A stretch of 64,000 nucleotides of DNA, from the NCBI GenBank assembly GCA_022072055.1, contig JAJVIK010000013.1:186001-250000 (forward strand), written 5' to 3'. This document shows, one piece after another, positions 37,201 through 53,200 of this stretch (position 1 is its first letter; each line of letters begins with the position of its first letter). Origin of the DNA: a bacterium. GTDB taxonomy: Bacteria; Hinthialibacterota; Hinthialibacteria; OLB16. A model generated the notes under the pieces. That model worked only from the letters and a program-made list of their open reading frames with translations, searched no databases and was not told the origin of the DNA. Both the position numbers and the translations under genes were made by a program.

Positions 37201-40200
37201 CACTTCCTCCTTCTTGAGTGAAAGCGCCGGTGTTGTTCTGGAATGTGCATGTGTTGTAATAGAAGGACCAGCCGACAGAATTCTGCGCGACCCGGTCCCC
37301 ATTGGAAAACACACAAGACAAGAAATAGCCATTCTGTGGATGCACCACGGGATTATAATATGTGCCGGTCACGTACAATCCGAAGGCGTTGGCGTAATCC
37401 AGCGTGGCAAGCTCGATATTCCCACGGTCGAAATTGCAGTACCACACACTCAGGTTGTCGCCTCGGATCACTCCATACCCGGCGGATGTGAAGGCCCCGG
37501 GAAAAAGGCTTTCCAGGCTCGCCCAATCCCCGCTGGCGAGGGCAAGGCCGGCCTGATCACCGGAAAGGTCCGCGGCTCCCCGGATTGTGCACGATTCCAA
37601 CCGAACATTGTCGGCCATGACCAGAACCGCCGAGCCATGACCGAATGGCGTGTTGGCCGGTCCGTCATTCTCGAGGGTGAGACCGAGGAGTTGCGTTCCG
37701 TTCCCCTCGATGATCATACCATAGTGATCCGGCGCTCCAGCGGCGCCCAAGAGGTTGAAGAGGATCCCGATCAGACCCCGGTTTCCGGTGTTGTTCGCGG
37801 CGCGGATCACCGGAGTCTGCCCATATTGCGCCCGAATTGTGAGATTGGTCTTGGTGGGGGGAATGTACAGGTCCTCCACATAGGTCGCGCTGTCGAGGAT
37901 GACAATCTCGCATCCGGACTGCGTGGAGTTGATCGCGTCCTGCAATCCGACGCCACCGGAGACATACGTCGTGCACCCATAGGTCCAGTTGAACAAGTCC
38001 ACTCTCCCAAGGTCGGCCCCCGATGATCCGCTCCCGTCCTTCTCGTAGCGCCATTCCAAACTGTGCGGACCACTCGACACCTGGGTGGAAAAAAACGCCC
38101 AATCCGTCGAGCCGGAGAGCTGCTCGACAGGGAAACCATCCACGAGGAAGGTCAGGAAATCATGGTTCGCCTCGGAGGAGACTTTCCAATAGAAGCTCGC
38201 CGTTCCGGGACCGTGGACGGTCGTGGCAAGTGTGGACCAGCCATTGTCTCCAATCGGACCGCTCTGAGCTCCGTCAAAGCCATCCACGCTGATGTTTCCG
38301 GTTGGGTCATAGCTCGCGGACGCAAGCCCGGTCCATGCGGCGTCGCCATAGCTCCAGATTGGGGTGGAATAACTGTCCACCGCCTCGTCGAGAGACACCG
38401 AATAATAGGGCGGTGGGCAGCTCTCGCAAACCGGGACATGGAACAGTCGCGCCACCGTGGAGAGCGCGGGGAGCTTGGGCTGCCCGCCGCAGTCCGGCTC
38501 ACTGACAGTCGAAACGCCGTTTTCGGACAGCCAGACCACACAGAGCGTGTTGTCATGCAGCGCCACCTTGATGGTCGCGCTGGAATTGGAGAACGCGCTA
38601 TACGCGATATCCATGTCGGGGGAAGGAATCGAGGAGGGATAGAAGGTGCTTGTCGCTGGGGTTCCATCCTGATTAAACACACGAACGACCGGAGCACCGC
38701 CGTCCCCGACACCTTCGCGCCAAGCCAAAGCGAAGTCGCCTTCGGGCGTGGCGTAAACGTCCATCGTGTTCGCCGAAATCTGGTCCAAGGTCGCCACCGA
38801 GTCCTCATAGCCGGCGATCACCGGCAGGGGTGTCACCGTCTGAAGGTTGTCCACTCGGAAGCGAAGGACACAGGGGCGGAGAACTCCGCCGACTTGTGGG
38901 CGGTAGAGCGCGGTCATATAAATGGTGTCGTTCGAGCATGAAAGCGTGTTTGTCGATGAGATACTGAGCGTTCCGTCGTTTGGATACGGCAGCAACCCCG
39001 AGTAAACAATCAACGCGTTGTAATTGAAGATCTGGGCGATCCGAGTTCCATCGTTACGGAAGACAGCCAGCGTGCCGCCGAAAAAGGAGCTCCGAACGGC
39101 GAAGAAGCCCTCCCCGGCGTCAACGCCCTGATAAGCGATACTATCCGTGGTCAGACCCGTTGCCGGATCGACGATCGTGGGGGTGGTGCTGACAACAAAG
39201 TTGGAAGCGTCCGGCGTGGTGATCGTGTGGACATTGCAGCGGTGCGTGCTGTTATTCAAATTCGGGACGATGCCATGGTCCCGAAAATACTCCACGACGC
39301 CCACATCCGTGATCAGGCCGCCGCTTCGGCTGCGGTCGACAAGGCTATAAAGTGTGTTTCCGTCGGACAGAATCGAGACGCCATTGATTCGGCTTGAGTG
39401 GAAGTCCGCGGGAAAGTAGGGGAGCTCCGTGTGAGAGACAGTTGAGGGGATATTGCGGCCCGCGGTCAGGTTACTGATTTTGTTTCCATACCGGTCGAAG
39501 CGCTGGAATATTCCGTGATCCAGAGTAACAGGGGGTATGCCGGACTGAATGTAGTCGAACGCCGCCAGTGTGTTCGGAAAGGCGTATCCGGGGTCGTTAT
39601 TGTAGTGTTGTCCCACGACGTATTGGCCGGTGTCCGGATCGGAATCGACATGGGTGTTCCACCCGAACCCCGTGTTAATTCCATAGAAGGAGGCCGCGGC
39701 CCCCTGCATATCCACCACCGCCCCAAGATCGTCGATATAGACATTGCTCTTGGGTCTCACAATTCCTTGCGGGGAAATAGTCGCCTTGGCCGGACCGCAG
39801 GAGGGCTCTTCCGCGATCCCGAAGAGGATGAACTCTTGTTGCAGGGTCCCAGGGTCGGGACCGAGCGGTGCCACATCGAAGTTGCGGAAGCCGTTATCGA
39901 GCGGCAGGAAGTCCGGCCAGACATCAAAATTCTCAGACAGGGGACTCGCACCAGCGCAGGCCGGATTCAAGAGCGGGTAGGAGAACGGATCGCAGGTCGA
40001 GGTGGGAGTGGGCGTTGGAGATGGAACTGTAGGCGTGATGGTCGGGGTGTTCGTGGGGGTTAGAGCCAGGCCGGAAAAGCCAACCGCGCCGAGCTGCCCA
40101 CCGCTAGCTCCGGCGCTTGCCAGGGTCGCGTTGTGATACAAGAAGCCCGCCGGATCGCACAGGGATGGGTCCTCATAGGCGGGGTCCTCGTGCAGGTTGT

Positions 40201-43200
40201 TGGCAATCACTCCGGACCAGGCGCCGGGAGTGACTTCGGTCCATCCGGCCTGTACGAACAGGTCGTTGTATTGAATGTCCACGGTCGATCCGGGAACCGT
40301 GCTCGGGTTCAACAATCTAACCGGCTCGTTGGCCACGATGATGGTGTCGCTAATGAGGATCGAACCAGGCGGCTTGGGAGGATCGTACGCCCCGGACCCG
40401 GTGGCGATTCCGACTCCGAGCGGGTTGTGGAGGTCGCAATTCTCGAGCCTCAGCGAGGTCGGGCGGGTGAGAGAGGGCGAGATCAGTGGATTGAAGAAAT
40501 CATTATCGTAGTTCTCCGGCGTGTATCGGATGCATGTGGAATCCGGACCCATGCTCCGGTTCGAGAGAATACAGTGCTGAAGGACTGCGTTGCCCTCATC
40601 CACCCGAACAAGTTGCGAACCGCCGCCGCAGAAAGTGCAGTTGACCGCCGTGATGTCGGCGACACTCCCACCGTAGCCCAGGTCCGCCTCGGCGGAGAGG
40701 AGCGCCCCGCCGGTGTCATTCGCGCGGCTGAAGCTGCACTCCCAGAAGACCGCGCTTCCGCCTTCCTGACTGACCGTCCCTTGGTTATCATGAAAGGCGC
40801 AATTGTAATAAAGGAAGTTTTCTCCCACGGAGTTCTCGACCACCCAGTTTCCGTTGGTGAAGGTGCAATTGATGAAGGTTCCATCTTGGGGTTGCACCAA
40901 GGGATTGTAGAATCCGAGGAGGATGCCGAGGATGTTGGCGTAGTCGATGGAGGCCAGTTCAATCTTGCCCCTATCGAATAGGCAGTCCACGACCGTAAGA
41001 TTATCACACCTCACCTGAGTGTAACCGGCTGAAGCGAAGGGAGTTGAAGCAAGCGCGCGCGCCTCAAAGGCGGCCCAGTCTCCCGAGACGATCGCCAAAC
41101 CCGCCTCATCCCCGCCAACAGGGTTGCCGCGAATGGTGCAGGACTGGATCGACACGTTGTCGGCGTATAGTGATATAGCGCTGCTGAACCCGAAAACCGA
41201 GTTCCCCGGGCCGTCGTTTTCAATGGTTAGTCCCTGGAGGGCGGTTGCATCCCCTTCAACGATCACGCCCAAGTGGTCCTGGGCATTGGGGACACCCAGC
41301 ATGGCATATGATAGACCAGGCAATCCGCGATTGTAGCCTGTGTTCGCCGCCTTGATGACCGGGGTTTGCCCCGCCGCGGCGCGGATGGTCAAGAATGGTT
41401 TCGAGGGTGGAATGTAGATGTCCTCAATGTAGGTGAGGCTGTCTTGAATCTCGATAATGCATCCGGGTTGAGCGGAGTTGATGGCGGCCTGAAGGCCGGA
41501 ACCTCCCGACACGAAGATCGGATTGGGGCAGGAGGGGTTGGGTGTCCGGGAAGGCGTGGGTGTGGGAGGCGTGGGGGAGTTTGTGGGGGTCGGACTCGGA
41601 TACGTCGGGGTGGATGTCGGACTGGGTGGCAGCGGCACATTCGGAACTTGCAGTACGGTCGCGATGTTGTCATTGATTTCCAATCCGAGGACCGGCGCCG
41701 GATTCAAGACCCGAGCAGTGACAAGGAGGCGACCCGAGACCATGGAACAGGACGGGTTCCGGGCATTGAATCCTGTAACGACACTCGGACCCGGCTCACT
41801 TCCCTGGAAGACTAAGAAAATACCCGTGACCGGATCGAGGTTGCTGTCGTAGAACCGACCCAGAATCTGAGGACTCCCTGTCAGACTGTATTCCATCCAG
41901 CAGACAAAAACATTGTCATCCTTGTCCGAACACACATTCACCCGATCGGGCGCCGCAACAATTCCATCCGTGACATAGGCTTCCTTGACAGTGGTTCGAT
42001 CACTCGCCCTGATCTTGGTGATGTAGACGCCGCCGGTTGGATTCCCCAGGAAATCAACGCCCCTTCCGGCCAGGTAGATGAAGCTGCTTTGGATATCGGA
42101 ATCGATTCGCGACGCAGTTCCGCTGGTGGAATTGATAGACGTCGTTGTTCCCCCGTATGGAGGAAGCGGATCGAGTGACGATGTTCGGATGATCGCTTCC
42201 CAAGTCCCGAGTGGATTCCCTGAATTGTCCCAGAACCCAATCGTTCGATTCCCCGCGGCGCTAAGGGCCCCGGAATCAGGGCGCACCGCGAAGCCACCAT
42301 TATACGCGGCGACATTGGACCAGATGCTAGTGCTTGCCGTTGGGTCCACTCCCTGGTTCGCGTTGAACGGGCCAAAGATGACTTCTCCCTGGGTCGGTGA
42401 CCCATCCTGCCCGTCCACAACCGTCGCGGCAGCGGCGCGAAGGCCAATCGGGTTCAGATTCCCCGAGCGGTCATCGGTGACCACCACAAAGTTGCCGTTG
42501 GAAAGCCCCCGTATTTCCCCACCAAACCGGATCTGACTATTCTGGACGCCTTGTGTGAACTGGCCGTAAGTCGGATCGATCAATCGATTCAATGGAGCGG
42601 GAACTCCGGAGGCCTTGTTAAAGAGCTGGACGGAAGCAACCTGGGCTATGTAAACGAATCCGCTTCCATAACTTGGGAAAAGGCTCGGGAAAGCCCAGGG
42701 AGTGCATTCGTTCCCCAGGAGATACTTGGTCCCTCCTTCCCGCTTGTCCCCGGCAATGCGTGGGGGGTTCCCGTCAACGCGCGCGATGTCGTTATTGTCG
42801 GTCCATGGGGTACTGGATTCCGTGAAGAAACCGTCGGTTTCGAGGACTGAGCCATCCGTGTTAAAGAACGCAACCACGGCGCGCTCGGTGATCCCCACGA
42901 GGTCCCCTTCCGCCTCGGTGTTTGCCGCCAGTGCAAGAGTTCCGTCACCAAACGCGGTCGTGTACGGCTCCCAATTGCTCAAGTTGGTCACTGAGTTCTT
43001 GAATGGAAGGATGTCCGCCATCAGCAGGTTGACACCCGCAGTTTGTGGGTTGGGGTAAATGAGGAAGTCAATGGTTGCGGTGGGCTGCGGTGTTGGCTGC
43101 GTCTCGGTCGGTGATGGCGTCGGATGGGTGGGCGTCACCGTTTCGGTTAGCGCTGGTCCGCTGAAGCCGGATGCGCCAAGCTGGCCGCCGGAAGAATCGG

Positions 43201-44683
43201 CGGTCGCCAAATTCACGTTGTGATAAAGGAAGCCCGCCGGGTCACATAAAGACGTGTTGTCGTAGAGGGGGTTTGCGTTCAAGTTGTTCCCCACAGTGAC
43301 ATTCCAGCTCCCCAGCGGGTTGCTGATCTGAGTTCCCCCTGTGAAGAGGTCGTTGTATTGGATAACCGCTGTCGGGACAGAGGGGCCGGTTACGCTGGCG
43401 AAGGCCACCGGCTCGGCGCAAGCCAGAATTGAGTTCATGAGGCTGAGGCTCCCTGGCGGCTCGCCCACCCCAGGAAGGTCGTTTGCGTAAACCCCGCGCC
43501 CATCAGGGCTGAAGAAATCACAATGATCGATGGTCAGGCGAGTCTCCGCGGGCATCCCGATCAGAGTGAAATCGGAGTCGATGTCTCCGGGTGAATACTG
43601 AATTCCCGCGACGACGGATGGGGATGTGGCGGTCACATTGAAGATGCACTCGCTGAAGGTGGCGATTCCCTCGCTGACACGCACCAAGCGTCCCTCGCTC
43701 GATCCGCCGCAAAAAACGCAGCGGTTGCAGTCGACCGTTGCGAGGCCGCCGCCGAAACCGAGGTTGGCCTCGATATCCATGAGGTTCTGTTGCGAGCTCC
43801 GCTCAAATCGACAGTCAGTGAAGGTGTGGTTTCCCCCCGCGCAGCGAAACCCATCACGGGCATCGTGGAAGGAACAGGCGTTGAAGATGTAATTCCCAAC
43901 AGCGTCCTCCGCGAGATCGTTCCCTCGCTCAAATTGCGCGTTGGTGAACGTGCCGGAAGGATGTACTACTGGGACAGGAGGCACATTTCCAGTCACGAGT
44001 ATCCCTATAGCGAACGCGAAATCCATTGTCTGGAGCAAGTCATCACCATTTCGCAATGTGGAATCAGTTACGGAAAGGTCTAGGGATGTCCTGGGCGCGG
44101 AGTATCCGAGGGCGGTGATTGCATTTCCGACAAATGGATCAAGCCAAGCGTAGGACCCCGTGATAACAAGGATACATTGCCCCGCTTGGTTGTCTGGATT
44201 GGCCTCCAGAATACAGTTCTCAATCGTGCAGCTGTCCCCCATTACGGTCATCGTCGCTCCTTCGCCCAGAGCGGGATTCCCGGTCGAGGTGTAGTTTCGG
44301 ATAGTGAGATTCCTGAACGTTGTCCCTGCCCCCTCCACGATGATTCCGTGATGGTCCGGCAAGTTGCCGATGCCGAAGGCTGTGTAGATCAGGCCAAGCA
44401 GACCCCGCGTTGTGGGATTGGTGGGGACCGTATTCGCCGCCTCGATGGTCACTTGCGCGCCGGAGACCGGCTGGATTGTCAGGTTGTTCTTGGAATTGAG
44501 ACTGCTGCCCGGAATCCAGAGGTCCTCGACATAGGTCCCCGCGGCGATCTCAATGGTGTCGCCACTGGCAGCGCCATTGATGGCCGCTTGAATCGTGGGA
44601 TAGCCGGCGGGAACCAGGAGGGTCGCCCCCTGGGCCCCCAGCGAGATGGAAAAAACAAGGATCGGAAAGGCGAGTTTGCGCAT
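28277..44683 (-). CDS. 5468-aa mosaic surface protein (four beta-helices, FG-GAP, PQQ propeller, cohesins)
   Basis: Start ATG 44683 is chosen because AAGGAG precedes it by 6 nt and a signal peptide (MRKLAFPILVFSISLGAQG) follows; the open frame runs further upstream without support. Approximate order by residue: beta-helix 1 (20-530); unknown beta-rich part (535-1010); beta-helix 2 (1054-1534); beta-rich part (1560-2090); jelly-roll-like module (2094-2231); beta-helix 3 (2234-2721); jelly-roll-like module (2724-2861); about seven FG-GAP/integrin-type repeats (2864-3331; GVGDVNGDGFDDFLIGA); jelly-roll-like module (3477-3612); beta-helix 4 (3622-4107); PQQ-type propeller (4111-4491; ALDAGSGNVNWSF); cohesin-like (4492-4627); six PEGA-like repeats (4629-5083); regulatory-like and dockerin-like segments (about 5090-5207; AADVNRSNTVTAFDASQILR); cohesin-like (5274-5396); and a C-terminal helix. 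FG-GAP loops suggest calcium binding. It is first in an operon with the 996-aa gene and carries an ECF-type promoter. Confidence 0.88.
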   Translation of the reverse strand: MRKLAFPILVFSISLGAQGATLLVPAGYPTIQAAINGAASGDTIEIAAGTYVEDLWIPGSSLNSKNNLTIQPVSGAQVTIEAANTVPTNPTTRGLLGLIYTAFGIGNLPDHHGIIVEGAGTTFRNLTIRNYTSTGNPALGEGATMTVMGDSCTIENCILEANPDNQAGQCILVITGSYAWLDPFVGNAITALGYSAPRTSLDLSVTDSTLRNGDDLLQTMDFAFAIGILVTGNVPPVPVVHPSGTFTNAQFERGNDLAEDAVGNYIFNACSFHDARDGFRCAGGNHTFTDCRFERSSQQNLMDIEANLGFGGGLATVDCNRCVFCGGSSEGRLVRVSEGIATFSECIFNVTATSPSVVAGIQYSPGDIDSDFTLIGMPAETRLTIDHCDFFSPDGRGVYANDLPGVGEPPGSLSLMNSILACAEPVAFASVTGPSVPTAVIQYNDLFTGGTQISNPLGSWNVTVGNNLNANPLYDNTSLCDPAGFLYHNVNLATADSSGGQLGASGFSGPALTETVTPTHPTPSPTETQPTPQPTATIDFLIYPNPQTAGVNLLMADILPFKNSVTNLSNWEPYTTAFGDGTLALAANTEAEGDLVGITERAVVAFFNTDGSVLETDGFFTESSTPWTDNNDIARVDGNPPRIAGDKREGGTKYLLGNECTPWAFPSLFPSYGSGFVYIAQVASVQLFNKASGVPAPLNRLIDPTYGQFTQGVQNSQIRFGGEIRGLSNGNFVVVTDDRSGNLNPIGLRAAAATVVDGQDGSPTQGEVIFGPFNANQGVDPTASTSIWSNVAAYNGGFAVRPDSGALSAAGNRTIGFWDNSGNPLGTWEAIIRTSSLDPLPPYGGTTTSINSTSGTASRIDSDIQSSFIYLAGRGVDFLGNPTGGVYITKIRASDRTTVKEAYVTDGIVAAPDRVNVCSDKDDNVFVCWMEYSLTGSPQILGRFYDSNLDPVTGIFLVFQGSEPGPSVVTGFNARNPSCSMVSGRLLVTARVLNPAPVLGLEINDNIATVLQVPNVPLPPSPTSTPTYPSPTPTNSPTPPTPTPSRTPNPSCPNPIFVSGGSGLQAAINSAQPGCIIEIQDSLTYIEDIYIPPSKPFLTIRAAAGQTPVIKAANTGYNRGLPGLSYAMLGVPNAQDHLGVIVEGDATALQGLTIENDGPGNSVFGFSSAISLYADNVSIQSCTIRGNPVGGDEAGLAIVSGDWAAFEARALASTPFASAGYTQVRCDNLTVVDCLFDRGKIELASIDYANILGILLGFYNPLVQPQDGTFINCTFTNGNWVVENSVGENFLYYNCAFHDNQGTVSQEGGSAVFWECSFSRANDTGGALLSAEADLGYGGSVADITAVNCTFCGGGSQLVRVDEGNAVLQHCILSNRSMGPDSTCIRYTPENYDNDFFNPLISPSLTRPTSLRLENCDLHNPLGVGIATGSGAYDPPKPPGSILISDTIIVANEPVRLLNPSTVPGSTVDIQYNDLFVQAGWTEVTPGAWSGVIANNLHEDPAYEDPSLCDPAGFLYHNATLASAGASGGQLGAVGFSGLALTPTNTPTITPTVPSPTPTPTSTCDPFSYPLLNPACAGASPLSENFDVWPDFLPLDNGFRNFDVAPLGPDPGTLQQEFILFGIAEEPSCGPAKATISPQGIVRPKSNVYIDDLGAVVDMQGAAASFYGINTGFGWNTHVDSDPDTGQYVVGQHYNNDPGYAFPNTLAAFDYIQSGIPPVTLDHGIFQRFDRYGNKISNLTAGRNIPSTVSHTELPYFPADFHSSRINGVSILSDGNTLYSLVDRSRSGGLITDVGVVEYFRDHGIVPNLNNSTHRCNVHTITTPDASNFVVSTTPTIVDPATGLTTDSIAYQGVDAGEGFFAVRSSFFGGTLAVFRNDGTRIAQIFNYNALIVYSGLLPYPNDGTLSISSTNTLSCSNDTIYMTALYRPQVGGVLRPCVLRFRVDNLQTVTPLPVIAGYEDSVATLDQISANTMDVYATPEGDFALAWREGVGDGGAPVVRVFNQDGTPATSTFYPSSIPSPDMDIAYSAFSNSSATIKVALHDNTLCVVWLSENGVSTVSEPDCGGQPKLPALSTVARLFHVPVCESCPPPYYSVSLDEAVDSYSTPIWSYGDAAWTGLASASYDPTGNISVDGFDGAQSGPIGDNGWSTLATTVHGPGTASFYWKVSSEANHDFLTFLVDGFPVEQLSGSTDWAFFSTQVSSGPHSLEWRYEKDGSGSSGADLGRVDLFNWTYGCTTYVSGGVGLQDAINSTQSGCEIVILDSATYVEDLYIPPTKTNLTIRAQYGQTPVIRAANNTGNRGLIGILFNLLGAAGAPDHYGMIIEGNGTQLLGLTLENDGPANTPFGHGSAVLVMADNVRLESCTIRGAADLSGDQAGLALASGDWASLESLFPGAFTSAGYGVIRGDNLSVWYCNFDRGNIELATLDYANAFGLYVTGTYYNPVVHPQNGYFLSCVFSNGDRVAQNSVGWSFYYNTCTFQNNTGAFTQEGGSAQFFNCDFRDNLSSTRPLVNMEADLWFGGGVSDVLFHYCRFCGAGGSEFVRVEEGNADFQYCIFSSASTDPAYSCVRYNPQRFDGDFFSAPFPVDSVRPSSVRFDHCDVYNPMGIGLVTDAEPFDSPNPTGAIWIRNTILVAHEGVKALHTSVVPGSLLTIEDSDLWTTGAQVTNMAWPSVLSGNLSEDPLYQSPGPCDPAAYSHGNFALVSRLLGGAGSVGYRDLIVPLEQALDNTDLVWETGGSASWVGIGETSFNPGGETSFDGYDAARSGTLWDNETSFFQTFVNGPGMLNFEWRVSSELNHDVLSFLVDNAEYTQISGITGWQHVSVPIGEGFHALQWRYSKDSSGSDGLDLGRVDRVVWAPENHIPLSTADSSFLGEYQWGHSGSTVAGLGDVNGDEYDDFLIGAPGVTPVGKTYLIFGNESEFGSNNYLWYSPASFVGEYISPYWRVNEVAGVGDVNGDGLNDFLIGARTPNHSNQIEVKAFLFHGDETDFGPDQPLSRADASFISPQISDIYPYTSPKFHVTGAGDVNADGFDDFLIGVGGNDEAGLNTGKVFLFFGNETDFSADTPLSDADASYSGESPFDELSSVAGVGDVNGDGFDDFLLGAFRNDTGGTGSGKSYLFLGNETDFGPNRSVTTADASFVGEYSADYSGFSVAGVGDMNGDGLDDFLIGAPRNNYGASGPYPGKIYLLFGRSSANWGQNFSLANADASFIGSQYASHLGDVVTGGMDVDGDGYDDLLIRGNKDFDSSYVYLIRGGIGPWIGIQTVESRADIVYQNELPNDAAGASLSALPDVDGDGFGDFLVGAPYNSQGNYDAGKTYLVHGRPGAISATYVRRQPGGNPIPEDFSSVRLSIDYAGGSSSIDVATLNRALPPNPPSPNQGTTLPMEWVIETDRLGPWTATVTFEYTNGELGGASESHLVVHQSPNGAPGSWQVAGISQARDPNRNVIRVQGIDSFSHFTIVDISTGGSAPMVSLPEALDNYDLTWITGGDAPWFGVGETTFNPNGETSFDGFDAARSGLIHDNETSFLSTEVVGPGTAGFYWRLSSETPFDTLEFYVDDTLQGQFSGEIPWHPASIEVPSGPHTLKAVYSKNGSGSSGEDAARIDLASWTPGPPPPVSCPIYVSGGAGLQAAINAATSGCLIEIVDSLTYAEDLYIPPSKTNLTIRAATGETPTIRAANTTGGRGLVDLWFQLVGASGAPDHAGMIVEGNGATLRGLTFENDGPVNTVYNWNSAILVMADHVTLEGCTIRGSTFTPGDRVGLLVASGDWTNLETVTGPIFSSAGYGIVRCDHLTMSECTLDRGGIGLATVDYANALGLLLTGQTYYNPVVHPQDGSFTNCDFIGMNFAAQNAVGKGFVYQNCNILENDASFQQEGGSASFSDCRFSRSFIGQELFAVQADLGYGGGVADITCTNCVFCGGRMEMVEVTTANAIFSGCVFTNEATESVLPCILYNPEEFGPEFYTLPAPFEGARPTSLLVDHCDFHIPNSIAIGTNSGPYNPPHPPSSLQVTNSVIVSDRPISIINSTFVPGTTLDIQYNDLFTTGTQVVNTSGWPGTIANNLNVDPYFVDPNRCEQDGFLYANPSLGNAASDGGPIGSQGRWPIGGLAETDQPMLGRSPQHTGFTDRVGPEIEPEILWEAAPGLAQAAFATQAILDGSGNIYVNYGNVDSAPAPRQENFISFDSSGLERWRFGPISDVLRFGLSTAALNLGGQVVAAFRDDYARSFASATGTLSWETPVQGSLSPPAVDRFGFIYVSGAKLDPLDGSILWQFPGGTNSAMALSLDQRTVYFGQSATLYALDAGSGNVNWSFSPSPAARFGYGAPVVGADGTVYLSERTTGDFFAFEDNGYSVVVKWVFPTNHPGDSPRRSGLDQDTVYLGTVGSDVVLHAIGLDGVPKWSREFPSGTYVGDPCITDAAVYVTVDSEGGLYALDRDDGSLLWRRQVSPPGASFSEGVTLADNGVLYVGTNGTLANPDQAVLVALQASSTPCLAVTLPEALSYPRGNQVTIPVEVGPVSDLSAITGLEVRFDPTILSLPSEDRLAPSSLLPDDWLIFANASEPGVVLVSGTGITPASGSGTLLTLTFDIVGNPGLCAPIFLSVGSFEDSNGASICTNTNDGWFCVTSEGTVTVEVEPDAGSWTLTGPEGFAPRAGSGDQTFSNAPVGMYMVTFDPLPGYITPPPASGELSSLGVLILSGSYTPTGSVSVEVEPDSATWTLTGPNGFAPYMGAGDETLPNAPIGVYQLVFDPLPNHLTPPSATGELVAFGSLILSGTYTPTGTVNVEVEPNSATWTLTGPVGFAPYSGSGDVSVPDAPVGNYSVAFDPLPGYLTPTSANGSLAPFGSLILSGTYTPTGVVSVQVEPDAATWTLTGPAGFSPQSSSGDQSFSDVPEGIYSLTFDPLPGYITPPLATGELAAFGSLILSGTYTPTGAVTVEVDPDSATWTLTGPAGFTPQAGAGDQTLPGVPVGIYTATFDPLPEYITPPSASGELTAFGALILSGTYTPTGTITVDVDPDVATWTLTGPTLFGSHSGAGDETIDDAPVGDYQVVFHAVSDYITPTSDSGALAASETLAFSGIYTPLLDISGRVAYCHDLASKPVPDATLELSPGWSERTDSTGLYAFESLPAGVSYMVTATRAIQPGDVAIPSITAFDASLILRHTVGLVVLNACQLNAADVNRSNTVTAFDASQILRFTVGLIPAPFVWLIEPPSRSYNPLLSDQFNQDYSAVLTGDVNGSWIYTGGAKSLEDSVSLKANSLEAPEAELSLGEHAGERGAHVIVELQATVDQLQAFTDLRITFDPAVLTVQGPSGATLAAPLEGWTLLSNAGEDPGLIRLSASGSAPVSASGAIVEILMEVIGAPGATSPLSLVGGAIENASGELLVASFQDGSFTVLGPSETPVPDATPSSENTPILTPSPTFAEARTFDAASLLELIRAVADKEVTGETARNLFEFADRWMEPTR
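29432..30796 (-). repeat. Six tandem about 225-bp PEGA-like repeats
   Basis: Each unit encodes roughly 74 residues of the form V-E-V-E-P-D-x-A-T-W-T-L-T-G-P ... FDPLPGYITPP ... LILSGTYTPTG. Five units are close copies; the last (downstream) one has drifted. Confidence 0.85.
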
Positions 44684-44936
44684 GGTGAGCTCCTTGTACA
44701 GCCGGCCCCAGCGCGGGGAACAAACCTCCCCCGCATGTTTAGTGGATACGAGGGCAATGGAAAAAAGGTTACAGAAACTTCTTCCAGGAACGGGGAGGCG
44801 AAAAAGTGCCTGAAAAAGGGGTATCCGAGGGGTCATGCGGCCTAGCGAGCCTCGATTTTTTTCTAGCGCGCCGCCCTTGAAATGGTGTATACTCCCCCTT
44901 GCTTGCGTTGTCCCCTGAGATGGTGGGAGGCTCCAA
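44684..44936. other. Divergent regulatory region between the 5468-aa gene and the sigma factor gene
   Basis: 253 bp. The reverse-strand ECF-type promoter of the 5468-aa gene is at 44745-44773. Towards the sigma gene there is TATACT (44888-44893) without a convincing -35 box, and the 15-nt-spaced TGTAACC element is absent, so the sigma gene seems to use another promoter. CGAGG (44826-44830) and CCTCG (44850-44854) followed by ATTTTTTT form a weak terminator- or attenuator-like hairpin upstream of it on the forward strand. Confidence 0.5.
44745..44773 (-). promoter_or_regulatory. ECF-type promoter, site A (5468-aa gene)
   Basis: On the reverse strand TGTAACCTTT (44773-44764), 15 nt, then TATC within CGTATC (44748-44745). 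Transcription would start about 55 nt before the ATG. The same element with the same 15-nt gap occurs at sites B and C. Confidence 0.72.
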
Positions 44937-45620
44937 ATGGCTTCAAGGGTGATGGCAGGTTCACCTGTGGAGGAGCAGTGGATTCGAGATCAGGTAGAAG
45001 TTTCGCGCGAGGAAGGCTGGTCGGCCTTCCTGCAGGGATTTGAGTCTTTTATCCGATTCCGGATTTCGTTGTACCGGTTTTCTCCTGAGGATGCGGAGGA
45101 TGTCTTTCAGGAGGTCTGCCTGCGATTGGCGAAGGATGATTCCCGGCTCCTGAGGGAATGGGACCCGAATAAGGCCCCGCTTTCGGGATACCTGGGCGTG
45201 ATCACAAGCAGCGTGTGCTTGAGTTTTCTCAAGTCCGCTTACTATTCATATAGCCGGAGGAAAGTGTCGCTTTCAGACACGGAGTGGCGACGTGGCGAGG
45301 TGTACGCGCTGCTCGAGGACACGGCCCCGACTCCAGAGGAGCGCTTGTCGCGCCTGGAACGGCTTGAGCGGATCGAGACCCTCCTTGAGAGCTGGATGCG
45401 CGGTCGCTCCCTTTCCGCGGAGGATTGTTTATTGGTCCGCTTGCGCATTGGTGGGATGAGCTATCGGGAGGCGTCGAACATTCTCGGCATTTCGTTGGTC
45501 AACGCCAAGGTTCGCTTTCACCGTTTGAAAGAGGACCTCGCACGCTTCCTGCTGGGGCCCTCGGCGGGGGAAAAGCGCGCCCATGAGGGAAGAAGGAGGA
45601 AGTCACCGGAGCCTGGTTGA
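44937..45620 (+). CDS. ECF-type RNA polymerase sigma factor
   Basis: A 227-aa sigma-70-family factor with regions 2 and 4 only. Region 2 shows FSPEDAEDVFQEVCLRLAK and then YLGVITSSVCLSFLKS; region 4 shows LVRLRIGGMSYREASNILGI followed by SLVNAKVRFHRLKEDL, the DNA-binding helix-turn-helix for the -35 element. ATG 44937 follows GGGAGG at normal spacing; ATG 44952 is an alternative. No anti-sigma gene is directly adjacent; the nearest candidate is the 427-aa protein at 48.9 kb. It lies divergent from the 5468-aa gene, whose promoter has an ECF-type element, and is the obvious candidate to read sites A, B and C. Confidence 0.92.
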   Translation: MASRVMAGSPVEEQWIRDQVEVSREEGWSAFLQGFESFIRFRISLYRFSPEDAEDVFQEVCLRLAKDDSRLLREWDPNKAPLSGYLGVITSSVCLSFLKSAYYSYSRRKVSLSDTEWRRGEVYALLEDTAPTPEERLSRLERLERIETLLESWMRGRSLSAEDCLLVRLRIGGMSYREASNILGISLVNAKVRFHRLKEDLARFLLGPSAGEKRAHEGRRRKSPEPG

Positions 45621-45820
45621 GCGGGTTCCAAGGGTTTGGCGGCATGGCACGACCAATCTGGTGATATCGGCGAGAATAACCTTCCATCCCTTTCAGGAGG
45701 CCAGCCCCCATCACTCCTGAGAACCACTTGGCAGCTCTGATCACGGGACTCCTTTGGTACTTCCCTTTCAATCTCCTCACATTCCTCACCTCACGTCTGA
45801 CTTCCGCTCATGAGCTGGAA
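45621..45820. other. Convergent intergenic region
   Basis: 200 bp between the stop codons of the sigma gene and the 917-aa gene. A perfect 7-bp inverted repeat (TCAGGAG 45693-45699, CTCCTGA 45714-45720) could be a hairpin but has no T-run. I see no gene here. Confidence 0.4.
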
Positions 45821-48574
45821 TTATTCACCCTGCCAACTCCGACTTCGACGGAGGAGGTCGGTATACCCTCGGTCTCCATCCCGTATATGGCGCATCATCT
45901 CAAGCAGGCGCGGTGGGTTGAGAGAGGGTTCCTTGTCGGATCTCCAGACCACCTGATCCACCCAAGCGGCATCGCGGTATTGGGAGCGACTGCGATCTTT
46001 GGCATAGATCCACTCAACAACATGATTCCCTTCCTGTAACTCATAGACCTCATGCCGCCACGCGTCCACGCCTGAAATGCGATCCATGGTGTTTCCGTCA
46101 ATGGAGAATATCAGGTAATCAAAACCGGGTTCGGATGAAACCGACCACCAGAAAGTAAGCGTGCCGGGGCCGACCAAATTGGCGGTGAGGACCGTGGCTT
46201 GGTTGTTTCCCACTCTTCCGCTTTGCGCCGCATCATTCCCATCGTGGGTGGTGGTCGATTGGAGGAACCACTCACCGGCGCCCACTGAGACCCAGTGAGG
46301 TTGCGTGTTGTCCACGGCTTCGGCGAGGTCGAGGTTCTGAGTGGGCGTGAAAGTCACGGTGGGGGTCGATGTAGACGTCACGGTGAAGGTTGGCGTCGGA
46401 GTCGCGGTGGCCGTGGAGGTGCCTGTGTCCGTCACCGTGGGTGTGTTGGAGGCGGTGGGCGAGTGGGTGTGGCTCCTGGTCACCGTTGCTGTTTGCGTTT
46501 CCGTGATGGTGAAGGTGTGGGTTGGAGTCGGTGTAACCGTGGGGGTCGGAGTATGAGTCGTTGTTGACGTATTAGTGATGCTGGGAGTCGGAGTGAATGT
46601 CGGGGAAGTTGAGGGGGTTGCCGTGACCGTCGGCGTGTCCGTTATCGTAAAGGTGGCCGTGATCGTCGGGGTATTGGTCGAGGTTCCTGTAACCGTGTGT
46701 GTCGGCGTAGGGGTCCCGGTGTGTGTCTGCGTCCTTGTGTGAGTCTTGGTGTTTGTCGCCGTTGCTGTCTCGGTGGGCAGCCTTCCGCCCGGGCAGTGAA
46801 TCCCGCAGTTGTAGCGGCCTCCTGAAAACCCCATGTCGTTTCTGTCGTAACCGTTTCCCGGGGGGAAGCAAGTGTCGTGGTGCGTCATGAAACCACAGTC
46901 CGGCAGGTGTCCCGGAGGCGCGCCGGCATCAATACACGGAGACGTGGGTTGGAGACAGAAATTGTTGACGGAGGGATCGGTGAATTGAGGATCCGAGGAG
47001 ATGTTGCCTTGTCCGGGATCTCCATCCTGGATGCATGAATAAGTCGCCTCGCAGCCATCCAAGTCATCTCCATTTTCCCAAAGGATGCAACTGAAGATTC
47101 CGCTACAGAAAAACGCACCACCATCAAGACATGCTATTCCGCCTCCCGCGCCCCCCGCAGCGACGTTCTGAGCAATCGTGCAATTCCCGCAATAAAGAGC
47201 GGTTCGAACGTATATTGCCCCCCCGTTCTGGGAGGCGAAGTTTCTCGCGAAAAGCGAGTTTACGATTTCGACGGACCCGGTTTCCGAGGCATAGCCTCCC
47301 CCACGACGAGTCGCTTGGTTTTCGATGAACCTGCATCTCACCAGCCAGGCAGGACCATACACTCCTCCGCCATTTCCCCCCGAACTTTCGGGGTCAGTGG
47401 CTTGATTTCCCGCGAACCGACAATCAAAGACTCGACCGTGGCCACCCCCCGTCATAAAACGACCGAACGCACACCCCCCTCCCTCTTTCGCTTGATTGCC
47501 GGAAAAGAGGCAGGTCCTGATCGTTGCCCCTCCGTAAAAACCACCACCCGCGTTGTTAGCTCGATTTGTCACGAATGTGCAGTTCTCCACTCGAACATCG
47601 TAGGAACCTCCCGCGACTCCGCCCCCATTCCCACTCTCTACCTGATTGGATGTGAAGAGGCAATCTCGAATCAACACCTGTGGATTCGACGGACCAGAAA
47701 AGAGATTGGCCACACAAATCCCACCCCCGGCGCTTCCGGCGATATTCCCGGTCAGGTAAGAGTTCGTGATCGTGGCGGTGACATAGGCGATATCCAGGTA
47801 GATCCCCCCTCCTGACCCTGCTTGATTCTCCCGAATATCACAGCCCTGAATGGCTATGGACCTTTCGGTTGAGCCGGTAACCGCGATTCCACCACCGTTT
47901 CCTCTGGTCACGTTTCCAGAGATGGTGCATGCCTGAAGAGTGGGGAACGTGGCGGGGAATCGAAACGTGTCGTACTGGCACCAAACCCCGGCGCCACCCA
48001 CTTGCCCTTGTGGTGGGAATGTTCCCGAGGTGTTGCCGGTAAGGGTGCATTGTGTGAGCATGGGGGCGGAATCCTTGCAGAATACCCCCGCTCCCCGGTA
48101 AGCCGCGTTATTGGAGATAACGCACTTGGAGATGGTCGGAGAGGAATTCGATTTGATCGAGATGCCGCCGCCCTCCTCGCCAGCTCCACGTGTAATTGTC
48201 AATCCGGATAGTGTGCAGTTAGGTCCCTCTCCGCTTTCGAATCGAACCAACGCGAACCCGGGAACTAACTGGCCATCGATTGCAGTCCCAGCCACAACTC
48301 CCGGGTCATTCGGGTTTGTGGATTGGACGACAAGGTCCTTCCCCAGGAAGTTGATGTGTTCCACGTACGTTCCCGGGTGGACAAGGATTACATCGCCGGA
48401 TACCGCCGCGTTGATTGCGGCTTGGATGGTCGTGAAGTTTCCCGTGCCATCCAGACGCACGTTATAGGTCGCCGCGCCAACCGAACCCATCTCGCCATAC
48501 AGGACCGCGAAGCACGATAGAACCGTCCCTATCGGCCAACCGAACAATGGATGCGCTGCCCTCGAACCTTTCAT
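45821..48574 (-). CDS. Parallel beta-helix protein with Thr/Pro linker and jelly-roll-like module
   Basis: A 917-aa exported protein. ATG 48574 has GAGGGG upstream and starts a signal peptide ending near VGAA (about residue 35). The beta-helix (about 38-590) opens with NFTTIQAAINAAVSGDVILV, the same opening as in the 5468-aa protein, and has GGGI-C repeats. A Thr/Pro/Ser linker (about 595-745) follows. Then comes a module (about 745-885) of the type LAEAVDN ... GPGTLTFWWSVSSE ... GVDAWRHEVYELQEG ... WVDQVVW that also occurs three times in the 5468-aa protein. The last 30 residues (LLEMMRHIRDGDRG and onward to SRSWQGE) resemble the C-terminus of the 5468-aa protein. Its promoter carries site B of the shared ECF-type element. 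Confidence 0.88.
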   Translation of the reverse strand: MKGSRAAHPLFGWPIGTVLSCFAVLYGEMGSVGAATYNVRLDGTGNFTTIQAAINAAVSGDVILVHPGTYVEHINFLGKDLVVQSTNPNDPGVVAGTAIDGQLVPGFALVRFESGEGPNCTLSGLTITRGAGEEGGGISIKSNSSPTISKCVISNNAAYRGAGVFCKDSAPMLTQCTLTGNTSGTFPPQGQVGGAGVWCQYDTFRFPATFPTLQACTISGNVTRGNGGGIAVTGSTERSIAIQGCDIRENQAGSGGGIYLDIAYVTATITNSYLTGNIAGSAGGGICVANLFSGPSNPQVLIRDCLFTSNQVESGNGGGVAGGSYDVRVENCTFVTNRANNAGGGFYGGATIRTCLFSGNQAKEGGGCAFGRFMTGGGHGRVFDCRFAGNQATDPESSGGNGGGVYGPAWLVRCRFIENQATRRGGGYASETGSVEIVNSLFARNFASQNGGAIYVRTALYCGNCTIAQNVAAGGAGGGIACLDGGAFFCSGIFSCILWENGDDLDGCEATYSCIQDGDPGQGNISSDPQFTDPSVNNFCLQPTSPCIDAGAPPGHLPDCGFMTHHDTCFPPGNGYDRNDMGFSGGRYNCGIHCPGGRLPTETATATNTKTHTRTQTHTGTPTPTHTVTGTSTNTPTITATFTITDTPTVTATPSTSPTFTPTPSITNTSTTTHTPTPTVTPTPTHTFTITETQTATVTRSHTHSPTASNTPTVTDTGTSTATATPTPTFTVTSTSTPTVTFTPTQNLDLAEAVDNTQPHWVSVGAGEWFLQSTTTHDGNDAAQSGRVGNNQATVLTANLVGPGTLTFWWSVSSEPGFDYLIFSIDGNTMDRISGVDAWRHEVYELQEGNHVVEWIYAKDRSRSQYRDAAWVDQVVWRSDKEPSLNPPRLLEMMRHIRDGDRGYTDLLRRSRSWQGE

Positions 48575-48661
48575 GGTGGGAGCCCCTCTTTCTATTTCCG
48601 TGATTGACCGCGCCGATTTGAAGCCACCCGAAACTCCTACTCCTTTAGGCCCTCACCCGGG

Positions 48662-48689
48662 CGCCAAGTGGCTAGGTCACCACTTGGCG
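48662..48689. repeat. 10-bp perfect palindrome in a divergent promoter region
   Basis: CGCCAAGTGG (48662-48671) and CCACTTGGCG (48680-48689) with an 8-nt loop. It lies in the 374-bp region between the 917-aa gene and the CHAT operon, in the transcribed leader of the 917-aa gene if site B is used. It could be an operator or an mRNA leader hairpin; no T-run follows on either strand. Confidence 0.7.
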
Positions 48690-48756
48690 GTGCGAATTCA
48701 TGCCCTATCCACTCCTCGCGCGGCAAATCTTCAACATGGATTTTTTCCCTTTGAGA

Positions 48757-48785
48757 GATACACGGTCACGAGCGGAAAGGTTACA
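48757..48785 (-). promoter_or_regulatory. ECF-type promoter, site B (917-aa gene)
   Basis: Reverse strand TGTAACCTTT (48785-48776), 15 nt, TATC (48760-48757). The 10-bp upstream block is identical to site A and the gap is the same length. The leader would be about 175 nt and includes the palindrome at 48662-48689. Confidence 0.72.
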
Positions 48786-48884
48786 GGCAAGAATCCGAAT
48801 TCCTTGGTGGAAACCGGCCGGTTCCTGCCATCAATCGAACAAACCTAACCTCAGCACCCGGAACAGTCGCCAATTCCCATCCCC

Positions 48885-48913
48885 TGTAACCTATCCCATC
48901 ATCTCCTTGTATG
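48885..48913 (+). promoter_or_regulatory. ECF-type promoter, site C (427-aa/CHAT operon)
   Basis: Forward strand TGTAACCTAT (48885-48894), 15 nt, TATG (48910-48913), ending about 35 nt before the chosen ATG. It is back-to-back with site B, 100 bp away, so both transcription units could be switched on together. Confidence 0.68.
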
Positions 48914-48948
48914 ATGAACTGGAAGGGATTTGAGACAGGGTGGAACCG

Positions 48949-50223
48949 ATGGATTCGGAATGGTTCAACGATATTGCGGGGCTTCTGGCGGGGAGCCTAT
49001 CGCCGGAGGATCGCGGGCGGGTGCTGGCTCGGCTGGCGCATGATCCCGAGGCGCGTGAACTGCTTGCGGTGGAAAGCGCCGTCCCAAGGGTCGCCGGACC
49101 GGATTCGAACTACCCCTTTGGCCTGCTACCGGGGATTATGGTCGGAAACCAGCAGGATTATTTCCGAATCCTCCGCCTCGATCACTTCTGCTTGGGCATC
49201 GAGGAGCGACGTGTGGATCGGTTCCTTGCCCGCATTACGCCCAAGAAAATGCCGCTCTGTTTCAAGGACTTTCTTCACCTTGAAACCGAACCGGGTTCCC
49301 CCTGTGGCAGAATCCGTCTCTCGTTGGAGTGGAGGGAGGGCGAAATCCTGGTGCGCTGGCGGGGCGAAGGGACCTCGAAGAACCATCTGGAATTCTGGAG
49401 AGAGGGCCGCTTGGTTCGAGCGGTCAGCGCCTCGGTGCCGATTGAGATTCCTTCCGAATTGTTCGCGGCTGGAGACACCTTGGTGGTCCGCCTGGACCGA
49501 GACAACGTGGGCCTCACCCTCCAGTGGATTCCGGTTGAGCTGGGTCTTTCCGATTGGGTCTCGGCTTGTATCGGCAACGCCTTGGCGGGAAATCCCCGTG
49601 AGTCGGTCCGTCTTCTGCGAACAGAAGTCCTTGAACGATTCCCGGAGCCTCTTCTGATTGAGCGCGCGGCCTGTCTGCTCTCCTCGCTCGGCTCGGTCAC
49701 CAAGAACATTCGAGGGCTGCTGATGCCGGTTCCACTCACTCGCTCTGCAAACCGGCGGGAGGACCAAAGGAACGCGTTCCAGGTGGTCTGGCGCGGTATG
49801 CTCCAGTGTTGGCCCGACGCGGGCCTCCGTCCCAACCCCTGGGCGGTCGAACTGGAGGATTTCGGAACCCCACCCCCGCTTCCCTCTCAAGTCGAGGAAC
49901 TTGTCCTTGCCCTGTTTCAAGCGGTGGAGCAACCGCCCCAGGAGATGTCTTGTCATCAGGCAACCCTGACGGATCCGAATCTCAGAATGGGCTGGGCGTC
50001 GTTTTGGGGGTGGAGCCTGCTCTTATCGGATCAGCCGGAGGAGGCCAAAGCGTGCTTCGACTCGGTTGAGGCTTCCGAGGAGGACCCGTTTTCGCTCCGG
50101 GAGTCCAGGGGGCTCGCCGCCCATCTCCTCGCGTATTCCGAATCTCGACGGCCTTCAAGGGAGGAGTGGATGGATTCCTCCCTTGGCGTGTGGAGGAAAG
50201 TGTTCCAACTGATTCTGGATTGA
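48949..50223 (+). CDS. Unknown protein with anti-sigma-like N-terminus
   Basis: A 424-aa protein of no family I recognise; ATG 48949 is used, though GTG 48940 in the same frame is possible. Residues 3-40 (LAGSLSPEDRGRVLARLAHD, then PEARELL) resemble the helical N-terminus of anti-sigma factors, but there is no zinc-binding HxxxCxxC and no membrane segment. The middle (about 110-190) looks like a beta-sandwich (RIRLSLEWREGEILVRW). The C-terminal part is helical and TPR-like (WSLLLSDQPEEAKACF). It is the first gene of an operon with the CHAT/kinase gene 15 nt downstream. It could be a sigma regulator or the CHAT substrate; both are inference. Confidence 0.75.
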   Translation: MDSEWFNDIAGLLAGSLSPEDRGRVLARLAHDPEARELLAVESAVPRVAGPDSNYPFGLLPGIMVGNQQDYFRILRLDHFCLGIEERRVDRFLARITPKKMPLCFKDFLHLETEPGSPCGRIRLSLEWREGEILVRWRGEGTSKNHLEFWREGRLVRAVSASVPIEIPSELFAAGDTLVVRLDRDNVGLTLQWIPVELGLSDWVSACIGNALAGNPRESVRLLRTEVLERFPEPLLIERAACLLSSLGSVTKNIRGLLMPVPLTRSANRREDQRNAFQVVWRGMLQCWPDAGLRPNPWAVELEDFGTPPPLPSQVEELVLALFQAVEQPPQEMSCHQATLTDPNLRMGWASFWGWSLLLSDQPEEAKACFDSVEASEEDPFSLRESRGLAAHLLAYSESRRPSREEWMDSSLGVWRKVFQLILD

Positions 50224-50238
50224 TCCGCATTCGCAACC

Positions 50239-53200
50239 ATGATTCCCTCAAACGGACCTCTCCGGCTGATTCTGGTGGCGCGCCGCGTGGACAACCGTTG
50301 CCGAATGGAGCTCCACCAGGCTTTTTCGGATCAGTCGAGCTTGGTCTGTCACGCCGACCATCCCTTGGAGCCGGAGAGGGTTGAGCGCCTCTCACTGATG
50401 GTTCTGAGGCACATCCGTCTCACCAATCGGGAGGGAACATCGGTCGCCGAGGAGGAGCGTTTCACGCGGACATGCGGGGAGCTCCACAACCTCCTTCTGC
50501 CTCCTCCGGTCCGGGAGGCGCTGCGAGGCTCCAGGGCCCATTACCTCCTGATTCGTGCTGACGAGTGGTTTGCGGCGCTTCCCTGGGAGTTCCTGTACGA
50601 TGGTGGGGAATTCCTGTGCTGCAAGTACTGTCTTGGACGACAGCCGCTCGATTCGTCGATCGCATCGGCTTCGCGCGGACACCGGCCCGTGTTCGGGCTT
50701 TCCTTCCTTGTCGTGTCGGACCCAACCCGCGGCTTGCCGGCCGCGTCTGAAGAGGGAAACGCCCTCTACCGGATGTTGAGCTCGGAATCGACGATCACAC
50801 TTCAGTGGTTAAACGGTCCTGTCCGCAAACAGGAGCTCCAGGATCGGCTCGGATGGTGCGACATCCTTCACTATTGCGGACACGGACAGCATTGCGAGAG
50901 CGAGGGCGCGGACCCGGGATGGGCTTTCGCGGATGGGCCCCTAAGCCCCTCTGAGATCCGAGACCGGTTGGCGGGAGGGAAGGACCCTCCCTTGCTTGTT
51001 TTCTCGAATGCCTGTGGGGATGCGCGAGACCGAGAGACCGGATCAGATTCGGTCATAAGGCGATTGGGGTCGCATGCCCATGCCTTTCTGAGCGCGGGTT
51101 CGGAGTGTGTGGTCGGGACCTTGTCGGAGGTCCTGGACGAATCGGGGGCAAAGTTCGCGCATGCGTTCTATGGGCGAGTGCTAGAAGGAGAGCGTATCGG
51201 GGCGGCGCTGCGCTCGGCTCGCGCGGAGCTCCGGGCCGCCGGTCCCACGACCGATCTCTCCTGGGCGCAGTATGTCCTTTACGGCGACCCGACGACCTCG
51301 GTATTCGAGGAGGCCGCCTCGGAACGGACCGCGCGGACCATCGTGTTGGTGGACTTGGATGAGCAACCCATCCGTTCCGGGGGGTCGTCGGAGCGGACCT
51401 CCGCCCCCGGAGGGTTGGATGTGGGCGCGCGGGAACTCCTTCAGAACGCCCTTCTCTCGTTTCCGGATGCGGCCTGGACCTCGGAGTCGGAGCCGCCGTT
51501 CTTGTGCGCCTTCTCCAGGCCTTCGGACGCCGCGCGGTTCTGCTGCATGCTGCATTCGGCGGCCCGTCGAAGCGACCACGGTCCCGAGCGGGCTTCACCC
51601 CTGCGTCTGGCGGTAAGTTCCGGCGAGGTCACCCTGGATAAAGGAATGGGTGAAAACGCCATCACTTCCGCGCGCGGACCTTCCGTGGATGTCGCCTGGT
51701 CCCTGCTGAAATTGGTCCGGACCGGGCAGACCCTGATGGTCCACTCAGCCTTTGACGACGCTCGGGCGGTCCTTAAAGATCGTGATTTCCCCGATTCGGC
51801 GGAACTGGTCTGGTCGAATCATGGCCCCTACCGTCTTGCCGATCTCGACGACCCCCTTTGGATCTGCGAAATGGGGGAAAAGGGAAGCGCGCCGCTGCTT
51901 GCCCCGGTGGAATCCGCGGAGGCGCGAAGGCTCACGCTCCCCGATGAGGAGCCGGTGCTGGGGTGGCGTCCTTCCTTGGAGAAATCGCTTCCCAATGCCC
52001 CGGATTGGGTGCTGACCGAGAAGCTGGGGGAGGGCGGCTTCGGCGAGGTTTGGCGCATTCAGAATCGCGCGAACAACGAAAGGCGCGTGGCGAAGTTCTG
52101 CTTTCAATCCGAGCGGGTGCGTCACCTCAAACGCGAGGTGAGTTTGATCCGACTCCTGCGCGAGCGCATTGGAAAGCACCCGAATATCGTTCAGCTGCAT
52201 GAGGTCTGCTTCGAGACCCCTCCCTATTACATTGTCATGGAGGATGTGGCGGGGAAGGACTTGGCGAAGTGGTTCGAGGAACACCGGGATCACCCCAAAC
52301 TCACCGAACAAGTTCGTCTCGAGATCGTCGCGCGGGTGGCGGACACGCTTCAGTCCGCGCATGACGCCGGAGTGATTCACCGCGATGTCAAACCGAGCAA
52401 CATCCTGATCAAGGGAACTCTCGATTCCGATTCGGGCATCACGGTCATGTTGACCGATTTCGGGATCGGTCAAGCGCCTGGGCGGGAGATTCCGTCCGGC
52501 TCCACGCTCACCGGCTTCACCGGAACGTTCAGCCCGACCGAGCTCCGAGCAAGGTCCGGAAGCTGGCTCTACATGGCCCCGGAGGTTCTCGTGGGACAGG
52601 AGTCTTCGATCCGGTCGGACGTGTATTCCCTGGGGGTGATTCTGTATCAGATTGTCCATGGGGAGTTCAACCAGCCGCTCCCCGCGGACTGGGAACGTGG
52701 GATTAAGGATCCGATCCTGGCGGGAGATATCCGGCGTTGCCTGGCTCGTAGGCCAGAGGATCGCTACGAAAGCGCCGGGGAGTTCGCCAGGGCCCTGAGG
52801 AATCTGGGGGAGCGTCGGATCGCCCAGGCCATCGAGGAAACTCGACGCCGAACCGAGGCGCGCCGGCGCCGTTTGACATTCGGACTCGGAGTTTTCTCCG
52901 TATTCGCCATGGCCCTGACCATCGCGCTAGGGAGTGCGTGGCGAGTGGCCGTTCAGGCGCGCGAACGTGAGCGACTCGCGCGCCTGGAAGCCGAGAGAGG
53001 GCATTACCACTCCCAGATTCATGAGGCCCAACGCGCGATTGAAGACCATGACTCGTGGAGCGCCAGGGAGATCCTCTATAAGTGCCCTGAACACCTTCGG
53101 GGCTGGGAGTGGGGCCGTCTTGCATACCTGTCGAACCTGGAGCAACGGGTCTTTGGATTTGAAGACACCGAAGTGTACTGCATGGCTCAGTCGCGGGATG

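Follow-up and report, generated by a model that had tools for sequence, protein, structure and literature searches.

A candidate ECF sigma, anti-sigma and CHAT module and its putative promoter element at a giant surface-protein locus of the phylum Hinthialibacterota

In a bacterium of the phylum Hinthialibacterota, a gene for a giant secreted protein, a gene for a second secreted protein and an operon encoding a CHAT/kinase protein are preceded by one and the same two-block sequence element. Which regulator reads this element, how that regulator might be held and released, and whether the arrangement recurs elsewhere are the questions considered here for the window (the whole 64-kb stretch of DNA that was analysed, contig C6:186001-250000), together with the genome to which it belongs, searched as 5.86 Mb in 32 contigs, and the genomes of its relatives.

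The shared element and the genes behind it

The three copies of the element are all intergenic, and each is oriented toward its gene. The sites and the secreted proteins encoded next to them are as follows:

44746-44773, minus strand: site A, putative promoter element TGTAACCTTT-N14-GTAT of the 5468-aa gene
48758-48785, minus strand: site B, putative promoter element of the 917-aa gene
48885-48912, plus strand: site C, putative promoter element of the 427-aa/CHAT-kinase operon
28277..44683, minus strand: 5468-aa secreted giant protein with Thr/Pro linkers, predicted target of site A
25275..28265, minus strand: 996-aa Thr/Pro-linker protein, encoded about 12 nt beyond the 3' end of the giant gene
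45821..48574, minus strand: 917-aa secreted Beta_helix/Chlam_PMP protein with a Thr/Pro linker, predicted target of site B

A preliminary description of the window had already placed a shared element upstream of the 5468-aa gene, the 917-aa gene and the CHAT/kinase operon, with no further copy upstream of a window gene, and both points hold exactly. The pattern TGTAACCTWT-N14-GTAT has three exact matches in the window, against a mean of 0.00 in 100 dinucleotide shuffles; likewise, TGTAACCWWT-N15-TAT has exactly three copies and none in 100 such shuffles. Site A lies about 63 nt 5' of the ATG (44683) of the 5468-aa gene, site B 184 nt 5' of the ATG of the 917-aa gene and site C 28-37 nt 5' of the start of the 427-aa gene. 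Gene starts were called mechanically, and the longest mechanical open reading frame of the giant gene (5519 aa) would overlap site A; however, the shorter start adopted in the preliminary description is backed by a ribosome-binding site (AAGGAG) and by a signal peptide at ATG 44683. The 996-aa gene and the giant gene probably share a transcription unit. The blocks of the three sites can be read as TGTAAC-N17-(C/T/G)GTAT, which is the layout of an ECF sigma promoter, and an AAC-like -35 and a CGT-like -10 element are present, in silico, near the sigma locus. AAC and CGT blocks typify the promoters of the SigX/SigW type in Bacillus subtilis.

Across the genome, sites A-C are the only exact copies of the 28-bp two-block pattern. 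A random genomic spread of the motif, which the preliminary description had named as the outcome that would speak against a regulon, is thus not what emerged, the distribution being non-random and locus-specific; the scan that it proposed for matches before Thr/Pro-linker genes yielded, beyond the locus, a single copy with one mismatch. This copy (C4:19745-19772, minus strand, equal to L053:9746-9773; sequence TTCTGTAACCTTTTTCCCTGAGCCTCCGTAA) stands 53 bp 5' of the ATG of a gene for a secreted protein of 777 aa that contains long Thr/Pro repeats; the gene is a plausible distant fourth target of the regulon. At two mismatches the genome offers background only, with 12 matches vs 11 for a reversed control pattern.

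Several minor observations concern the same sequences. A 28-bp stretch occurs twice in identical form inside genes, at a distance of 3.2 kb (G000 C1:412404 and 415597; L007, L008), which suggests a local repeat. A large open reading frame (2318 aa) with a Thr/Pro-rich stretch occupies window positions 8270-15226 and has no copy of the element. The Thr/Pro-linker proteins, including those encoded at window 28277-44683, at L046 11347-16917, at L053 7360-9693 and by the M2 targets in L043 (described below), have common C-terminal tails, of the type LF(D/E)FA..W after a dockerin-like segment or (A/D)VE(D/G)W(E/D)(F/L)Y, and these tails may be sorting or anchoring signals.

The sigma factor, its candidate inhibitor and the CHAT protein

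The regulatory genes of the locus are on the plus strand, one of them between the giant gene and the 917-aa gene and the others behind site C:

44937..45620, plus strand: ECF sigma factor, 227 aa, with sigma2, sigma4 and a DAED-type sigma2.2 motif
48940..50223, plus strand: 427-aa putative anti-sigma, with an N-terminus like a zinc-less anti-sigma domain, a disordered linker, and beta and helical domains
50239..54957, plus strand: 1572-aa receptor-like protein, with CHAT, a cyclase-like remnant, a Ser/Thr kinase, a transmembrane-like stretch and WD40
50467..51288, plus strand: CHAT protease domain of that protein (residues 77-350), with His215 and Cys259 invariant in 9/9 modules
52012..52668, plus strand: Ser/Thr kinase domain of that protein (residues 592-810), with K/HRD/DFG present

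The presence of an ECF sigma gene in the cluster, as first described, is borne out by TIGR02937 (sigma70-ECF), which the window sigma matches with 51.1 bits against a cut-off of 42.9. It also passes Sigma70_r2 (25.2; cut-off 24) and falls just under the cut-off for Sigma70_r4_2 (22.4; 25.7), and its profile matches solved ECF sigmas. The acidic motif reads EDAEDVFQE, and the paralogues keep acidic residues there. The lack of the element before the sigma gene itself was likewise seen again, none being found upstream of 44937-45620 when the window and the upstream regions of the modules were inspected. Since transcription from an own element is common among ECF sigmas and not universal, this does not disqualify the sigma as the reader of the sites.

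The first gene of the operon behind site C, which the preliminary description did not recognize as such, probably encodes an anti-sigma. The likely start of the 427-aa protein is ATG 48949. Searches of Pfam (nothing significant) and NCBIfam gave no match. An AlphaFold model (pLDDT 84) begins with three helices, followed by a disordered linker (residues 46-55), beta domains and, at the C-terminus, helices, and a Foldseek comparison of this model with the PDB returned only insignificant Ig-like and TPR-like matches. Profile comparison was more informative. The N-terminus of the 427-type proteins aligns in register with a zinc anti-sigma profile (hhalign Prob 86, E=5e-6), with a score of 26.5 vs a mean of 7.2 and a maximum of 13.5 in 300 column shuffles, and the match is confined to the N-terminal windows of the 427 alignment; compared over their full length, the 427-type and zinc anti-sigma profiles are only weakly similar (P=0.003). 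The zinc ligands H-x3-C-x2-C are absent from the 427-type proteins and present in their positional equivalents of other phyla. By homology and position, the 427-aa protein is thus probably a zinc-less anti-sigma.

In the 1572-aa protein, the CHAT domain is recognized by Pfam (CHAT, 1.2e-30), and in the alignment a transmembrane-like stretch separates the kinase from WD40. In the PDB, Foldseek matches the CHAT model to separase, to Csx29 and to DdvA, an anti-sigma that contains CHAT. The CHAT domains of the modules, with their intact His/Cys dyad, are putative proteases. A reading of the 1572-aa protein as a defence system was set aside, the PADLOC/MADS matches being to its generic kinase domain.

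A module in seven copies, most with an element of their own

Neither the repetition of the module nor the constancy of CHAT within it figured in the preliminary description. The genome encodes six further full-length paralogues of the sigma, making seven in total; the seven sigma genes and seven 427-type genes pair 1:1, and a CHAT gene adjoins in 7/7. The modules are M1 in the window, M2 on C9, M3 and M4 on C1, M5 on C12, M6 on C6 and M7 on C5. CHAT is the constant partner and kinase/WD40 is not: in M6 and in R2, a cyclase-CHAT protein carries a nucleotide-cyclase domain in place of kinase/WD40, with a CsgG-like end in M6. The cyclase-CHAT-CsgG-like architecture is common to Nitrospirae and M6 (L116, L119, L046). 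A scan of a collection of genome contigs with the 427-aa protein alone gave no match. The 427-type profile finds exactly seven loci in the genome and, among 14 genomes of the class, occurs beyond it only in two of the same family, namely G001, Candidatus Hinthialibacteria bacterium OLB16 (LMZT01000121), and the MAG OFTM149. A more distant sigma/412-aa/CHAT cluster, R6, belongs to another family of the class. The closest relatives compared belong to other genera than the window species.

Six of the seven modules have an ECF promoter element of the TGYARN-N17/18-CGTA type, each in a version specific to the module. Upstream of the 427-type gene it reads TGTAGY-N17/18-CGTACC in M2, TGCAGA-N17-TGTATA in M3, GGCAAT-N17-CGTACA in M4, TGTAAG-N18-CGTAAT in M6 and TGCAGG-N17-YGAAT in M7; the corresponding regions of M5 and its relative R5 yielded no element. 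The M2 pattern TGTAGY-N17/18-CGTACCY has three genome matches, all within the M2 locus, before the 427-type gene, before a LuxR-type gene followed by one for a 1533-aa PKD/Thr-Pro protein, and before the gene for a 1965-aa Thr/Pro protein. The M6 pattern TTGTAAG-N16-CTCGTAATC has two exact matches, both in the M6 locus, with its own 427 operon and a 1856-aa subtilase/Thr-Pro protein as targets. The M7 pattern TTTGCAGGAAA-N12-CTYGAATWAT has two matches even when three mismatches are allowed, both in the M7 locus, with its own 427-type gene (the M7 sigma gene lies downstream of it in the same orientation) and a 419-aa Thr/Pro CARDB protein as targets. The M3 and M4 elements have a single exact genome match each. 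Weak copies of the M1 and M6 elements, with two to three mismatches, were dismissed as background, nearly all of them lying inside genes. In four modules, ten copies are thus all in their own locus, facing a gene start and unique in the genome, and their targets are the 427-aa operon and neighbours, mostly encoding secreted Thr/Pro-linker proteins. Each pattern was defined from its own copies, such that recovery of these is by construction; uniqueness in the genome and location in cis are not. Each of the six modules for which a private variant was found probably controls its own surface proteins, independently of the others.

When each 427-upstream region was compared with its own locus in an unbiased two-block search, the signal did not exceed that of shuffles, and the module elements were therefore judged by whole-genome specificity, by leave-one-out scoring and by a test on sister pairs. 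The archetype [TG]G[TC]A[AG]N-N17/18-[CTA]G[TA]A occurs in 9/12 regions upstream of 427-type genes, with 0.73 expected and a maximum of 5 in 500 shuffles. In leave-one-out matrix scoring, the proposed site was the best in 10/10 regions having one (combined p=1.8e-8). A tree of sigma and 427-type proteins contains four sister pairs (M2+R4, M3+M7, M6+R2 and M4+R1), three of which join different genomes; the -35 hexamers within pairs differ at two positions in total, vs 8.9 with shuffled labels (p=0.0002), and the sharing of whole sites is similarly marked (p=0.0004). A Mantel test of sigma against promoter distance gave p=0.17 with the most distant module, R6, and p=0.016 without it. The element consensus was derived from the sites described, a circularity that the leave-one-out and sister-pair tests soften and do not remove. 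As judged from these comparisons, the element tracks the sigma across modules and genomes, which is the best available sequence evidence that this sigma family reads the element. With a locus-specific element, paralogous modules and co-variation with the sigma, the regulon of giant surface proteins and a signalling operon first suggested for the window is supported.

A proposed switch, its alternatives and its relatives

The reading favoured here, and considered moderately probable, is that the sigma encoded at 44937-45620 reads sites A-C, that the 427-aa anti-sigma holds it and that CHAT frees it, turning the regulon on. All three parts are inferred from sequence, the last of them, the freeing of the sigma, with Craspase (Csx29/Csx30/CASP-sigma) as the model. 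In the resting cell, the 427-aa protein would hold the sigma. The 1572-aa membrane protein would receive a signal via its WD40 part, and its kinase would gate the CHAT protease, which would cleave or displace the 427-aa protein and leave the sigma free. Free sigma would then transcribe the anti-sigma/receptor operon (feedback), the genes for the adjoining giant secreted proteins and, probably, one Thr/Pro-linker gene elsewhere.

Within the same regulon, the kinase could instead be the switch, phosphorylating the sigma or the anti-sigma, with CHAT as a scaffold or acting on another substrate. Its catalytic motifs are intact in most modules, and an ECF sigma adjoining a Ser/Thr kinase is an established mechanism, exemplified by PknT/EcfP and PknS/EcfK of ECF43 (PMC8999054). 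However, the kinase-activated sigmas of ECF43 lack the acidic DAED motif in sigma2.2 (PMC8999054), whereas the window sigma has it and its paralogues retain acidic residues; the constant partner in the modules is CHAT; and M6, R2 and the Nitrospirae relatives have CHAT with a cyclase and no kinase. Because CHAT is kept in the kinase-less M6 and R2 and the sigma keeps its DAED motif, CHAT is favoured as the candidate releasing enzyme, and a switch operated by the kinase appears unlikely. It is quite improbable that the elements are operators of a classical repressor or activator rather than sigma promoters. Conserved blocks could be operators, and a LuxR-type gene is present in the M2 locus; however, that gene is seen in M2 only, the 17-18 bp between the TGYAR-type and CGTA-type blocks are fixed, dyad symmetry is absent, distances to gene starts are short and the element changes along with the sigma paralogue. 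That the sites are unselected remnants of a local duplication of upstream DNA would fit their presence within one locus but is very improbable, given that the two blocks persist while the spacers and flanks of A, B and C have no obvious similarity, that unrelated genes are among the targets and that diverged blocks recur in modules of other genomes.

The favoured reading, in which CHAT releases the sigma from its inhibitor, can be compared with several known systems. In Craspase, an ECF sigma with sites in the same locus is inhibited by Csx30, and the CHAT protease Csx29 cleaves this inhibitor (PMC10028731). As in this type III-E system (Csx29 TPR-CHAT, Csx30 and CASP-sigma), the module co-encodes an ECF sigma, an inhibitor-like protein and CHAT, has sigma sites before genes of the locus itself, and possesses a CHAT whose model aligns to Csx29 structures (Foldseek E about 2e-11 to 1e-8). 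Unlike in Craspase, there is no Cas7-11 or CRISPR effector among the module genes, CHAT sits on a membrane receptor-like kinase or cyclase protein, and the outputs are giant surface proteins; a PDB sequence search found no match between the 427-aa family and Csx30. A CHAT fold in an ECF regulator is shared with the transmembrane DdvA (PDB 8rot, 8rw5), but DdvA is by its PDB title itself an anti-sigma, whereas the module has separate anti-sigma-like and CHAT genes. Genes for CHAT, subtilase and carboxypeptidase proteins have been noted around ECF54 sigmas, whose control has been proposed to be proteolytic (PMC8999054); compared by description, the module resembles them in the CHAT gene near the sigma and departs from them in that its anti-sigma-like gene is constant, ECF54 being described without an anti-sigma (PMC8999054). 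The proposed logic, with a protease removing an anti-sigma, also recalls the RseA/DegS-type proteolytic release of ECF sigmas, as that mechanism is summarised in PMC10028731, although the protease is a different one.

In the open-access literature, no paper was found that joins a CHAT domain with an ECF sigma, an anti-sigma and a kinase; the combination of CHAT domain, sigma factor and ECF was met in the Craspase paper alone. Given this and the known nature of ECF sigma/anti-sigma signalling, the module is read as ECF signalling to which a CHAT receptor, repetition and private promoters are the new additions. For an uncultured phylum, it offers a testable gene-control circuit, and it connects a signalling switch with giant Thr/Pro-linker surface proteins. 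Paralogous sigmas with matched, differing promoters in one cell should also be useful for decoding sigma-promoter recognition and as orthogonal switches. Additionally, the comparison suggests that bacteria use the chain of CHAT protease, anti-sigma and sigma known from type III-E CRISPR more generally.

A scan with the CHAT alignment retrieved 49 loci from many phyla, with a sigma of this type near CHAT in 33/49. In those of the loci that were read from Omnitrophota, Nitrospirae and Desulfobacteraceae, an H-x3-C-x2-C protein, mostly of 200-250 aa, is encoded between sigma and CHAT, and some of these pass the zf-HC2 cut-off, indicating a classical zinc anti-sigma N-terminus. A broader proposal, to be taken as tentative, is that a CRISPR-free family of sigma/anti-sigma/CHAT switches exists in Hinthialibacterota, Omnitrophota, Nitrospirae, Desulfobacteraceae and probably Eisenbacteria, with the sigma being freed when CHAT cuts the anti-sigma; that in Hinthialibacterota it may form up to seven mutually insulated channels in one cell, with private promoters selecting giant surface proteins; and that Craspase could be its RNA-guided offshoot.

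The upstream regions of the Omnitrophota sigma genes gave no clear ECF archetype, and by eye many have TTGACA...TATAAT-like blocks. Several of the Omnitrophota sigma/zf-HC2/TPR-CHAT operons (L120, L122, L124, L130-L146) follow, by eye, the end of an apparent membrane pyrophosphatase gene. In the Eisenbacteria equivalent (L149:5532-8535) the order is CHAT-sigma-zf-HC2, the last gene having two zf-HC2 stretches, and in Spirochaetota (L157:5301-6224) a CHAT gene is followed by an open reading frame that resembles, by eye, ECF sigma region 2.
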